From positions 1-22,002 of IMG/VR virus record IMGVR_UViG_3300017605_000684: a stretch of 22,002 nucleotides of DNA, one strand, 5' to 3'. Positions within the stretch are counted from its first letter, which is position 1, and each line of letters starts with the position of its first letter. Below, piece after piece: positions 2,564 to 14,139 of this stretch. A model generated the notes under the pieces. The model worked only from the letters and a program-made list of their open reading frames with translations, searched no databases and had not been told where the DNA came from. The translations under genes were made by a program, and so were the position numbers. Origin of the DNA: a virus.

Positions 2564-3106
2564 ATGCCGGAACGACCAGCAACACTGTCGGGAACTCTGT
2601 CATGGGATGAAGCGTCACCAGAGCAGCCGATTTATACTCCCACACCGCCGCCGGGACGACCCACACATCCCATCGCTACGCCGCCGCTGGTCCCATCGCA
2701 TCCCATCTGGATTACCGATGCGCCCGACCATCCTGCACATCCGATCGTGCTGCCAGACCCTCCCGTCAGCATTTGGCCCCCGCGTCCGGATAACTCACTG
2801 CCGCCGTATCCGGGGTATCCAGCACATCCTATTTGGATTGGGACTCCGGGGCGTCCGACGCATCCGATATATCTGCCACCCGGTGTAGGACCGGTTCCGC
2901 CGATGGAGCCGGGTGGTCATCCATCACATCCTATCGTTCTTCCTGTTCCACCGAATGGGGCTGGTTCTCCGTCACACCCCATCGTGCTACCCATTGTTCC
3001 CGGTGCGATTCCGGAAGGTAGCGAGCTGTATTTCAGTCCCACACTGGGATATTTCATCGCTATCAAAATCAGCGGTGAGGACATGCCAGTAGTAGACCCG
3101 CGCTAG
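2564..3106 (+). CDS. Proline-rich protein with seven HPI repeats
   Basis: A 180-residue protein dominated by proline. The tripeptide HPI occurs seven times (residues 35, 46, 59, 88, 100, 122 and 138), nearly always as P-[A/S/T]-HPI followed by one aromatic or aliphatic residue and often LP. The last 30 residues (from GSELYFSP) lose the repeat and look like a short folded beta tail. No signal peptide or membrane segment is visible. Similar HPI-rich proteins are common as hypothetical proteins in uncultured phages, to my recollection; no function is known to me. The repeats suggest an extended, possibly metal-binding or protein-binding surface. The ATG is preceded by AGAGAGTGGAAGA, and it is the first gene of the rightward block. 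Confidence 0.75.
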   Translation: MPERPATLSGTLSWDEASPEQPIYTPTPPPGRPTHPIATPPLVPSHPIWITDAPDHPAHPIVLPDPPVSIWPPRPDNSLPPYPGYPAHPIWIGTPGRPTHPIYLPPGVGPVPPMEPGGHPSHPIVLPVPPNGAGSPSHPIVLPIVPGAIPEGSELYFSPTLGYFIAIKISGEDMPVVDPR

Positions 3107-3139: not shown

Positions 3140-3829
3140 ATGTTTATCTCAGACGCCGAAGCGAAAGCAAGACTACACGCAGCAGATAATCTCGCTCGAC
3201 GTAATGAGATAGCAGAGAAACCGCGCCGCACACTCACCAATTACAACGAAAGAAAAGAGATAAGATACCAGACTCCCGAAGATACACAACAAGATAATGC
3301 AGATGACACTCCTGCACCAGAAAGTGCGGCACCGAGGGACGGGACCACAATTGCGCCTTTGCATAATGGTGGTCGCCGTCCGGGGGATATAAATCTGTCA
3401 CGCGAAGTGCGCTCCATCATTGGCACCATTGCCAATATGGACACGCTGAAAAACACTGCAAAAGCTTTCGGTGTTTCTCCCCATCACGCGCACGAACTCA
3501 AACACGGCAAACATTCCAACGCACAGGGAACCAATCCAGAACTTGCATCATCTATAGATAGCAAGCTGGAAAGCGCACGCAATACAGCAGCCGAGATGCT
3601 GACGAATGTGCTGCTTGGAATGGACACGTCCAGAATCAGAAAACCAAGAGATGCAGTATACGTAGCAGATAAACTCTCCACTATCGCTACGCGCACCGTC
3701 CGTTCATCAGCATCTGGTGAGGAAGAGGGGAATGGAGGAGCGACCAAACTGATTGTTTACGCTCCAACAATCAAGCAGGAAAATCACTACGAGTCAGTCC
3801 ACACTGGCCCTTCACAACAGGACAGGTAG
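3140..3829 (+). CDS. Helix-turn-helix DNA-binding protein, candidate small terminase
   Basis: A 229-residue hydrophilic protein. Residues 101-123 (TLKNTAKAFGVSPHHAHELKHG) have the shape of a helix-turn-helix: a helix, the turn FGVS, then a basic recognition helix. The first 80 residues are charged and low in complexity. A second helical stretch at about 134-190 (SIDSKLESARNTAAEML and on) could oligomerise, and the C-terminal 40 residues look flexible. Small terminase subunits combine an N-terminal HTH with a central oligomerising helical region, and lie upstream of the large subunit. Position and domain order fit, but five or six genes separate it from terL, where the small subunit is usually adjacent. 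A transcription regulator of the late operon is the main alternative. Confidence 0.6.
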   Translation: MFISDAEAKARLHAADNLARRNEIAEKPRRTLTNYNERKEIRYQTPEDTQQDNADDTPAPESAAPRDGTTIAPLHNGGRRPGDINLSREVRSIIGTIANMDTLKNTAKAFGVSPHHAHELKHGKHSNAQGTNPELASSIDSKLESARNTAAEMLTNVLLGMDTSRIRKPRDAVYVADKLSTIATRTVRSSASGEEEGNGGATKLIVYAPTIKQENHYESVHTGPSQQDR

Positions 3830-3835
3830 AAGAAA

Positions 3836-4078
3836 ATGCCAATCGATAAGCCATATGCGTATCTCAAGCCGTCGAATGATGGCCTTGCTCGTATTACTGA
3901 ACTACGGGAACTTTTTTCTCTTGTAGAAAGGAAAATCAAGGAATTGTGCCCACAATCGCGGCACCAAAGCATCGCGTTGACACGCAATGAAGAGACAGCA
4001 ATGTGGGCAATCAAAGCTGTCGTATTCAATGACCCAGAATCCATAAATACAGTAGATAAAGAGCAGAAGGAAAAATGA
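3836..4078 (+). CDS. acb2: Acb2/Tad1-hairpin family protein, candidate anti-CBASS cyclic-nucleotide sponge
   Basis: An 80-residue protein that looks like the Acb2/Tad1 hairpin family. Seen: an N-terminal PYAYLKPSNDG segment, a first helix (ARITELRELFSLVERKIKEL), then the hallmark CPQSR at 38-42 and ALTRNEETAMWAIKA at 47-61. The last fits the family pattern I recall: CP-S-R, then S-ALT-LEEA-MWA-AI. Characterised Acb2 proteins form oligomers that sequester the cyclic oligonucleotides made by CBASS (and some by Thoeris-type systems), blocking the abortive response. The gene sits 6 bases after the HTH gene and overlaps the next by ATGA, so it is co-transcribed with the late operon. The family call is from recalled pattern, and ligand range cannot be read from sequence. 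Confidence 0.8.
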   Translation: MPIDKPYAYLKPSNDGLARITELRELFSLVERKIKELCPQSRHQSIALTRNEETAMWAIKAVVFNDPESINTVDKEQKEK

Positions 4079-4617
4079 ATACTCCCAATCTGAGAGATAT
4101 TCGTGTTGCAAGTGACCTGAATGCGGATGCTTCTCCTATGGCTCAAGTCATAGTAGCAGGGACTCCCGGCACATCTCACATCGCGCTCCGTCTTATCTGC
4201 TCACTTTCAAGAATCCCGGCTGAGAAAGAGAAACCTGCTGTCCTGAAGATAGAAGGCGGTGCGGCACCGATTGAATTAGAGATGGGGGGTGCGGGAATCC
4301 AGCAGATTGATCTGGGCTATTACGTCTGCATGGATGGAAAAGACCTTGCCATCACGGTCACGGACCCAAACGCGCACAAGGCAGAAGCACCAGCACACGC
4401 TTCGCCAGCGCCAGCACCTGCTCCAGCACCAACAACCAAACCCCCAGTAGCACCTTTGCAGAAGCTCCCTACTCCGCAAGCGCCCTTGCATCCGGCCCCG
4501 CACCACCCAAATCCTACTCCAGCCCCGGCTCCAAACCCTAATCCTGCCCCGCACAAAACGCCGATTTCGGGTCGTTTGGCCGTGTTCTACTACTCAGCAT
4601 CGACGCTAGTCCTCTGA
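4075..4617 (+). CDS. Small beta-rich protein with Pro/Ala-rich C-terminal tail
   Basis: 180 residues in two parts. Residues 1-100 look like a compact beta domain (alternating hydrophobics around VIVAGTPGTSHIALRLICSL and LEMGGAGIQQIDLGYYVC). Residues 108-165 are a flexible tail of AP, NP and HP repeats, such as PAPAPAPAP. The final 15 residues (SGRLAVFYYSASTLVL) are hydrophobic again. Start and stop of the preceding Acb2-like gene overlap by ATGA, so translation is coupled. I do not recognise the family. A beta domain with a Pro-rich linker could be a minor virion or surface-displayed protein, but that is inference. Confidence 0.65.
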   Translation: MNTPNLRDIRVASDLNADASPMAQVIVAGTPGTSHIALRLICSLSRIPAEKEKPAVLKIEGGAAPIELEMGGAGIQQIDLGYYVCMDGKDLAITVTDPNAHKAEAPAHASPAPAPAPAPTTKPPVAPLQKLPTPQAPLHPAPHHPNPTPAPAPNPNPAPHKTPISGRLAVFYYSASTLVL

Positions 4618-5446: not shown

Positions 5447-6193
5447 ATGGCTGATAAGATACCGAATATTCTGGGCCTGAAATCGGGCAACATCTTTGGC
5501 CCCTCGCTAGCGGTATCTCATACAGCACCCGGTGTAAAGAAACCCATCAAGCCAAATATCTTCACACCCAGTGAGTTGGAATACGGTCGAGAAGTAGAAG
5601 AAGTAGCCAAGCGTGCTCATACTGACAAAGATGAAATTTATGTAGCTGAGCCGGGAGGAGATAAAGATAGTGAAGTGTTTGTTCCCACGCCTCCAGACTT
5701 CAGACCATTTACTAGCACTGTCGTAGGACCGCCAGCACTTGCACGCACAGTAGAAAAGATTTATAAATTAGTGCCACATTTGAGAGGTGTGTCACAAGAA
5801 ATCATCATGGGACCAAACAGAGCAGTTATGGAATCTATGGATGAACAGAATACTCTAGGCAAATTAAAGGGTAAAAATAGATGGGGTCCGGAGAATTATG
5901 AAAGTGCGCCCATGTTGGGAGTAACTGACCGTTCACCCGAAGGGGAAAACAATATATCATTAAATCCTATTCATAATTATGGAGACTTCAGACCGTCAGA
6001 GCTAGACAACACGGTCGCGCACGAACTCTCTCATGTAGCTGGCTACGGACATCCTGATGCTTATCGTCTAGGTGATTTGTTTACTAAAGAACAGAATGAT
6101 AGATTCCAAGAAGAAGTAAATGCAAGACTAAAAGAGAAGCTGGATAAAATCAAAGCAGACGTCATTAAAGGCGGCATCAGAATGGCTCAGTAA
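5447..6193 (+). CDS. Metzincin-like zinc metalloprotease-motif protein
   Basis: 248 residues. HELSHVAGYGH at 192-202 is an exact HExxHxxGxxH motif, which in metzincin peptidases supplies three zinc-binding histidines (H192, H196, H202) and the catalytic glutamate (E193). It follows an N-P-I-H-N-Y segment and a helix-forming ELDNTVA stretch, as expected for the active-site helix. The first 80 residues look flexible and the final 40 are a charged helix (KEQNDRFQEEVNARLKEKLDKI). There is no signal peptide, so it would act inside the cell or in the virion. It starts directly at the previous stop and ends one base before terL. Roles worth considering are a maturation protease or a virion-carried enzyme. 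Family is likely from motif; substrate is unknown. Confidence 0.68.
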   Translation: MADKIPNILGLKSGNIFGPSLAVSHTAPGVKKPIKPNIFTPSELEYGREVEEVAKRAHTDKDEIYVAEPGGDKDSEVFVPTPPDFRPFTSTVVGPPALARTVEKIYKLVPHLRGVSQEIIMGPNRAVMESMDEQNTLGKLKGKNRWGPENYESAPMLGVTDRSPEGENNISLNPIHNYGDFRPSELDNTVAHELSHVAGYGHPDAYRLGDLFTKEQNDRFQEEVNARLKEKLDKIKADVIKGGIRMAQ

Positions 6194-6194
6194 C

Positions 6195-7850
6195 ATGTCG
6201 CTCGAAGTTCCTGGCAATATAGTAGATATAATAACTTCATCTAACGCACCTAAAGAGTGGAAGCCACACGCACGTCAAGAAGAATTCGTTCAGCTACCGT
6301 GGACTATCTTTGAAGCATTCTTCGGCGGGGCTGCTGGTCCCGGCAAGACAGAATGCTTGATGATGATTCCAATCCTTTATGGATGGTATCGTCATCCACA
6401 GTTCAAAGGACTGATTCTTCGACGCACATTCTCTGATTTAGAAAAAGAATTCATCTCACGCTCACAGGAATACTACCCTCTTACTGGCGCAAAATACAAC
6501 GAACAGAAACGCCGCTGGAGATGGCCCAATGGGGCTATGATTCAGTTCGGCCACATGGAACATGAGAAAGACAAAGCTAATTACGATGGCGCCGAATATA
6601 ATTACATCGGATTCGATGAACTGACACACTTCACAGAATCACAGTATCTTTACGTCACATTATCCCGAGCGCGTTCGACCAGTCCGGACTTGCCAGCAAT
6701 TGTTCGGTCAGCGAGCAATCCCGGCAATATCGGGCATTCGTGGGTTCGTCGTCGTTTTATCGAACCTGCGCGTGAAGGACGAAAGATAATCATCGAAACA
6801 GTCACTGACTTTACTGGACAAAGAGTAGAGAACAAACGCATCTTTATTCCGGCACACGCAACTGATAATCCAACACTTTTAAAGAACGACCCCGGCTATC
6901 TCGCACGAATGGAGATGATGCCGGAAAGCGAAAGACGAGCGAAAGTCTATGGCGACTGGTGGCTATTTGCAGGTCAAGTCTTCACAGAGTTTCGCAGCGT
7001 CTTGATGCCGGGTGAACCATCAAATGCATTACATGTAGTAGAGCCATTTAGAATCCCAGATTGGTATCCACGCGTATCGCACTTCGATTGGGGAACATCA
7101 TCAGCAACAGCAGGCTATTGGGGAGCAGTAACACCAGATAATAGATGCATCGTCTATCGTGAATACTACGAGAAAAACAAGCGTGTTTCCGATTGGGGCA
7201 ACGCTTTTAGAGAGCTATCAATTGGAGAAAGCATACGAAGAGTTGGCTTATGCCACTCCGCTTTCGCAAATCGTGGAGAGGAACATACACTTGCTCAACA
7301 GTTTGCCCAATTTGCAGGAATGGAGCCTACATCTTCTGGAAGAGATAGACTCGGCGGTAAAATGCTCCTACATGAATATTTGCGATGGAAATCATTGGAG
7401 CGTGCTCCACTAGATCAATCACAGTTCGATGAAACAGTAGCACAGAGACTCTTTAGATTTTATGGAGAGAAGAAATATCAAGATTATCTGCGAATGTTTG
7501 AAGCACCAAAAGAAGAAAAAAATCTACCAAAACTAATCATCTTCGATACTTGTCCAAAACTCATTGAAACCATACCGCTATGCATCTACGATGAACATGA
7601 TAAGGAAGATGTAAAAGAGTTTGAAGGAGATGACTCCTATGATAGCATTAGGGGTCTGCTGAAGATGGTAGACGGCTATGTTGGGGACGCAGAAAGAGAA
7701 CAACAGAAAAGCGTAAAGTATGATACCGCACTCAATTACTTGGCTGTTACGCAGGACCAAACAGGCTTTTATCGACGCATGGAAGTTATCGATAAGGGTG
7801 AAAAACGCGGGATTGGCGTTCGTCGGCGCAGTGCTATCAGACGCAGGTAG
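6195..7850 (+). CDS. terL: Terminase large subunit
   Basis: A 551-residue DNA-packaging motor. Seen: Walker A GGAAGPGKT at 44-52, Walker B YIGFDE at 137-142, and a coupling motif SNPG at 174-177, all typical of the N-terminal ATPase. The C-terminal RNase H-like nuclease begins at HFDWG with first aspartate D298 and ends with SYDSIRGLL (D483). It cuts concatemeric DNA and pumps it through the portal encoded two genes downstream. One oddity is that the position where relatives usually carry the second nuclease aspartate (DPS-AF) reads C353-H354-S-A-F. The ATG lies one base after the previous stop without a strong ribosome binding site, so translation is probably coupled. Confidence in the family is high. 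Confidence 0.95.
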   Translation: MSLEVPGNIVDIITSSNAPKEWKPHARQEEFVQLPWTIFEAFFGGAAGPGKTECLMMIPILYGWYRHPQFKGLILRRTFSDLEKEFISRSQEYYPLTGAKYNEQKRRWRWPNGAMIQFGHMEHEKDKANYDGAEYNYIGFDELTHFTESQYLYVTLSRARSTSPDLPAIVRSASNPGNIGHSWVRRRFIEPAREGRKIIIETVTDFTGQRVENKRIFIPAHATDNPTLLKNDPGYLARMEMMPESERRAKVYGDWWLFAGQVFTEFRSVLMPGEPSNALHVVEPFRIPDWYPRVSHFDWGTSSATAGYWGAVTPDNRCIVYREYYEKNKRVSDWGNAFRELSIGESIRRVGLCHSAFANRGEEHTLAQQFAQFAGMEPTSSGRDRLGGKMLLHEYLRWKSLERAPLDQSQFDETVAQRLFRFYGEKKYQDYLRMFEAPKEEKNLPKLIIFDTCPKLIETIPLCIYDEHDKEDVKEFEGDDSYDSIRGLLKMVDGYVGDAEREQQKSVKYDTALNYLAVTQDQTGFYRRMEVIDKGEKRGIGVRRRSAIRRR

Positions 7851-13649: not shown

Positions 13650-13689
13650 CTGTTTTTTAACGCATATGAATGTCTTTAAGGAGGACTTC

Positions 13690-14139
13690 ATGGTGGACAA
13701 AGTAAAAGCACTGGAAGCACTAAAACGTCATACACAATATATCAATGATTGTTGGGTATTCACAGGTTCAACTTCAGGACGTGGATACGGACAAGTCAGA
13801 ATAAATAATCGTCTGTATATGGCGCACAGACTCAGCGCACATATACATAAAGATTTTGATTTGAATGATGAGGAACACTTCATACTTCATGCAATAGAGT
13901 GTAAATACAGACAATGCTGGAATCCAGAACATCTACGTGTAGGCACTCAAAAAGATAACATAAAAGACTCAATAGCAGCAGGGACATTTACTGGTCCACA
14001 GAAATCAGCAGAAATGAGGTCGAGAAAAGTAATGTGTAAACGGGGCCATGAATTTAGTCGAGAAAATACATCTTACGCAGCGGGTAAACGTAGGTGTTTA
14101 GCGTGTCATTCGTTGCGGCAGAGGAAATACAATGCCTGA
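13690..14139 (+). CDS. HNH endonuclease (free-standing, homing-type)
   Basis: 149 residues from ATG 13690, chosen because a perfect AAGGAGG lies 5 bases upstream; an in-frame ATG at 13666 precedes that site. Seen: CWVFTGSTSGRGYGQV at 21-36, AHRLSA, and the HNH core with H67, C71, C76, N78, H81 and N90 (CWNPEHLRVGTQKDN). This is the arrangement of phage HNH endonucleases that cut intron-less or intron-containing alleles and spread by gene conversion. A C-terminal CKRGHEF followed by CLAC is a second small zinc finger. It sits between the putative decoration gene and a structural gene, overlapping the latter by 8 bases. Likely a mobile insertion; packaging-related HNH functions exist elsewhere but usually adjoin the terminase. 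Confidence 0.87.
   Translation: MVDKVKALEALKRHTQYINDCWVFTGSTSGRGYGQVRINNRLYMAHRLSAHIHKDFDLNDEEHFILHAIECKYRQCWNPEHLRVGTQKDNIKDSIAAGTFTGPQKSAEMRSRKVMCKRGHEFSRENTSYAAGKRRCLACHSLRQRKYNA

Follow-up and report, generated by a model that had tools for sequence, protein, structure and literature searches.

The window, that is, the whole stretch of 22,002 nucleotides analysed here, comprises positions 1 to 22,002 of the IMG/VR record IMGVR_UViG_3300017605_000684, and its source is an uncultivated phage, probably from soil. The features around the locus are as follows.

3140..3829, plus strand: preceding ORF of 229 aa; homologues lie near acb2 in 17 relative loci
3836..4078, plus strand: acb2-like gene of 80 aa; the Acb2/Tad1 hairpin domain covers residues 9-62 (Pfam, PHROG, AF2, Foldseek)
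3860..3907, plus strand: N-terminal ligand-facing block of the acb2-like gene, residues 9-24 (alignment and residue map)
3959..4027, plus strand: C-terminal helix block of the acb2-like gene, residues 42-64 (alignment)
4075..4617, plus strand: following ORF of 180 aa, Ala/Pro-rich in its C-terminal part
6195..7850, plus strand: terminase large subunit, terL (Pfam Terminase_6N, E=9e-14; phrog_979, E=1e-46)

The plus-strand translation of 3836-4078 contains exactly the three elements, CPQSR, ALTRNEETAMWAIKA and PYAYLKPSNDG, that a first-pass annotation had read in the 80-residue product. That annotation had also placed the gene upstream of terL and overlapping the next gene; by measurement, the overlap with the ORF at 4075-4617 amounts to 4 bases (ATGA), and terL starts 2.1 kb downstream. 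The preceding ORF (3140..3829) had no family match in Pfam or PHROG and is a candidate small terminase, as judged from its position and a helix-turn-helix-like segment. No homologue of the following ORF was found in the loci of the first 35 relatives. Together with an ORF at 2564-3106 on the same strand, the ORF at 4075-4617 forms a Pro/Ala-rich pair near acb2 with repeated HPI/PP or PAPAP motifs, and in the relatives acb2 is flanked by similar small PDNSLP-rich proteins.

A profile search, which had been proposed as a check on the first annotation, matched the 80-aa protein to Pfam PF24729 (Acb2/Tad1 hairpin) with E=2e-10 and 41.1 bits, above the curated cut-off of 27 bits. The same family was matched by all 26 aligned family members, and it was the sole family matched by each of the positive controls, T4 Vs.4, PaP2 p26, and Acb2 homolog 43. 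When the family profile was compared with T4 and PaP2 Acb2 using hhalign, the probability was 92.7%, in the same register as our residue map. A match to PHROG 1454 (E=1e-9) was accompanied by a further significant one to PHROG 15810; on the other hand, the protein did not match PHROG 717, the T4-type Acb2 subfamily that T4 and PaP2 Acb2 do match. By PHROG, the protein belongs to the short-hairpin subfamily 1454, together with Paenibacillus phage proteins. Among these, Pahemo gp73 is the best match from a sequenced isolate (36% identity); it and its relatives share the short hairpin but have no IDKPYAY lead and no FNDP tail. We found no experimentally tested close relative of this subfamily. 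In a single-sequence phmmer search of the PDB, Acb2 was absent and the only matches were irrelevant WD-repeat proteins; the Acb2 link missed there emerged once profiles, HMMs, and the predicted fold were used for searching. Neither PADLOC nor NCBIfam has a model that matches the protein.

The AF2 model of the 80-aa protein consists of a short N-terminal helix and two antiparallel helices forming a helical hairpin (H6-9, H14-37, and H42-64), followed by a low-confidence helix at 72-78; the mean pLDDT is 83, exceeding 95 across most of the hairpin. This architecture agrees with that of the published Acb2 protomer, which is likewise built of a short helix and two antiparallel helices (PMC10419184). 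The AF2 model and its Foldseek matches agree on a short N-terminal helix, two long antiparallel helices, and no other domain. The first-pass annotation would have given up its call had the helical hairpin been missing; it is present in the model. As for known structures, the top-ranked Foldseek match in the PDB was 9ptq, Acb2 homolog 43 with 3'cADPR (probability 1.00; 61 columns with an rmsd of 1.6 A), with T4 Vs.4 at ranks 2-3; E-values were weak, 0.17 at best, because the fold is tiny (a 60-residue hairpin). In BFVD, ranks 1-10 were Acb2/Tad1 hairpin proteins throughout, with rmsd down to 0.8 A. The assignment to the Acb2/Tad1 hairpin family was therefore upheld by the PF24729 and hhalign matches, the predicted fold, and the structure searches, and both Acb2-family membership and the fold are established by computation. 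We also considered Tad1 (Thoeris anti-defence 1, 7uav), with which the protein has the hairpin domain in common. Tad1 carries an N-terminal beta1-beta4 sheet (PMC12043709), whereas here the hairpin domain begins at residue 9 of 80, after just 8 residues, and the AF2 model contains no N-terminal antiparallel beta sheet. Membership of Tad1 was rejected on the missing beta domain, and the protein is accordingly named Acb2-type.

Mutants of T4 Acb2 have assigned roles to Y8, H11, K23, R79, and F82 in the cyclic-dinucleotide pocket, with F82 as its second stacking residue, to the T12 cap, and to A66 and A77 at the hexamer interface (PMC10097602); T68 matters for affinity (PMC12657230). In the register that sets Y9 on T4 Y8 and T49 on T4 T68, which hhalign reached independently, Y9, R24, and K60 align with the cGAMP contacts Y8, K23, and R79, S13 aligns with the helix cap T12, A47 and A58 align with the interface residues A66 and A77, and T49 aligns with T68; the position of T4 A73 is taken by T54. 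T4 H11 falls on P12, and F82 falls on V63, or on F64 with a one-residue shift. PaP2 Acb2 likewise does without H11 and F82, having Ala at the F82 position. In spite of the shared fold and these equivalences, identity to T4 Vs.4/Acb2 (7uq2) is 18%, T4 is 19-20 residues longer between the two blocks, and it sits in PHROG 717 rather than 1454. Similarly, Y11, S15, K26, R67, T74, and R85 of the Pseudomonas phage protein PaP2 p26 (8h2j, 8ixz) correspond to Y9, S13, R24, R42, T49, and K60, yet identity is 24% and PaP2 is 23 residues longer between the blocks.

The search with the single sequence retrieved 35 close viral-contig relatives with 62-86% identity, and the family-profile search raised the number to at least 152 at the search threshold. 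Across 72 distinct relatives, R24, R42, A47, T49, E52, M56, W57, A58, and K60 are invariant, and Y9 and S13 are almost invariant. The best conserved stretch of the protein in the alignment of relatives is MPIDKPYAY.KPS. Thus, the divergence of the N-terminus suggested by the first-pass annotation did not hold as a general claim, the N-terminus being the most conserved part, but it holds for one residue: L10 (codon CTC) stands where all viral relatives have His. Estimates of pN/pS against the nearest relatives ranged from 0.14 to 0.28 and are rough because synonymous sites are near saturation. ORF 3836-4078 is a real gene, and it is under purifying selection. A scan of bacterial contigs yielded three distant matches with 37-40% identity, two in Myxococcales MAGs and one in Bradyrhizobium, and thus no host assignment.

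Context labels, assigned from 5-6 kb flanks on often fragmentary contigs, divided 70 distinct related viral loci into 35 with packaging/structural genes, 20 with replication genes (for instance, L025 and L017, respectively), 3 with both, and 12 with neither. The replication-type neighbours include a UDG-DNA polymerase A, a Sak4-like protein, a PD-(D/E)XK exonuclease, a DUF3987 primase, and a helicase. On the acb2 protein tree, in which few columns leave many forks unresolved, supported branches force at least seven context changes. The acb2-like gene is an accessory that moves between packaging and replication modules, and for this reason its place 5' of terL does not fix the timing of its expression. 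Of the earlier proposal that the gene is tied to a late operon, the position upstream of terL stands, while the expression timing is unsupported, given the relatives in the replication module. Promoter and terminator scans gave matches no commoner than in shuffled sequences and are therefore silent on an operon; a search for Shine-Dalgarno-type patterns was also at chance level. Recurrence of the same protein in a packaging or a replication module is what is expected of an accessory counter-defence gene, and it cautions against reading expression timing from position. These copies in the replication module also weigh against a different reading of the gene, as a structural or packaging accessory (e.g., a scaffold or terminase helper) sharing a helical hairpin by chance. 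Such a role draws on the terL, portal, or terS-like genes found near acb2 in about half of the related loci; nonetheless, the flanks of the 20 replication-type loci are without packaging genes, acb2 is conserved far better than the adjoining terL (62-86% versus ~38-44% identity among relatives), and the invariant residues include those of the ligand site. We regard a packaging role as highly improbable, and it was rejected as largely refuted.

Taken together, the gene very probably encodes an Acb2-family sponge. Its 80-aa chain, predicted to fold as a short N-terminal helix and a helical hairpin, would probably assemble as a hexamer, as T4 and PaP2 Acb2 do, and would bind small cyclic nucleotides that act as immune signals, holding them between paired protomers by means of Y9, R24, and K60, as the aligned T4 residues suggest. 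The signal would be sequestered uncut, so that CBASS effectors, and possibly Thoeris effectors too, would be kept from killing the infected cell. Counterpoints to a sponge are a hairpin whose inter-block stretch is some 19-23 residues shorter than that of T4/PaP2 Acb2, the absence of clear equivalents of F82 and H11, and the presence of L10 where the subfamily conserves a His; the phmmer result and the weak Foldseek E-values count on the same side.

Of the single labels, anti-CBASS is the most probable for the 80-aa protein, whose ligands may be the cyclic nucleotides of CBASS or the cADPR isomers of Thoeris. Anti-CBASS specificity is not established: among solved structures, the nearest is that of an Acb2 homolog in which the Thoeris signal 3'cADPR is bound, and the pocket residues fit the cGAMP-binding T4 protein as well. 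That the main target of this Acb2-type sponge is 3'cADPR or another cADPR isomer made by TIR/Thoeris, rather than CBASS cyclic oligonucleotides, is a tenable possibility, if not a probable one. Homolog 43 belongs to the same Pfam family, shares the short hairpin length, and aligns without gaps in both blocks (residues 10-62); single sponges able to bind both signal classes are known (PMC12043709). Its overall identity to the protein is just ~21-25%, however, and it has MFFATKAA in place of the conserved MWAIKAVVFNDP tail. Moreover, Y9, R24, and K60 fit the T4 set for cGAMP too, and R42 aligns with PaP2 R67, which we take to be a contact of cA3.

The residue-10 column bears on the ligand as well. 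The window copy could be a weakened or re-tuned allele, in which L10 beside the stacking Tyr alters affinity or ligand choice: His occupies this column in all viral relatives and in the short-hairpin proteins Pahemo gp73 and Acb2 homolog 43, and the end branch of the window copy on the protein tree is 0.35 long against a median of 0.16. This we hold somewhat doubtful, since Lys in T4 and Arg in PaP2 mark the His as dispensable in the wider family, Leu also occurs in one distant bacterial-contig relative (L041), and the codons CTC and CAC differ by a single base, so that an assembly error is possible. That both things apply at once, with the short-hairpin, IDKPYAYH-led subfamily forming a sponge class of its own, adapted to a TIR-derived or other signal, and the L10 copy having a shifted ligand range, appears unlikely. 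For the Acb2-family sponge itself, the analysis supplies a residue-level hypothesis, a pocket of R24, K60, and Y9 with the change from H10 to L10. The Acb2 family was already known and its known picture is unchanged by the 80-aa protein; what is added is a conserved sponge subfamily, with its viral-contig copies, now placed in uncultivated phages.

Several other features of the window were observed. No tRNA was found in a scan of the window. A minus-strand gene at 126-1337, opposite in direction to the structural genes, encodes a CobS-like AAA ATPase (phrog_249, 'porphyrin biosynthesis', E=1e-46), and between it and the divergent structural genes lies a stretch of ~1.2 kb without a long ORF (1338-2563). 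Just 5' of terL, a plus-strand ORF of 248 aa (5447-6193) contains HELSHVAGYGH, an exact instance of the metzincin-type zinc-binding motif HExxHxxGxxH, with a weak SprT-like Pfam match (E=0.038). Finally, an HNH endonuclease gene, possibly of a homing endonuclease, lies amid the structural genes at 13666-14139 on the plus strand (phrog_826, E=6e-24).
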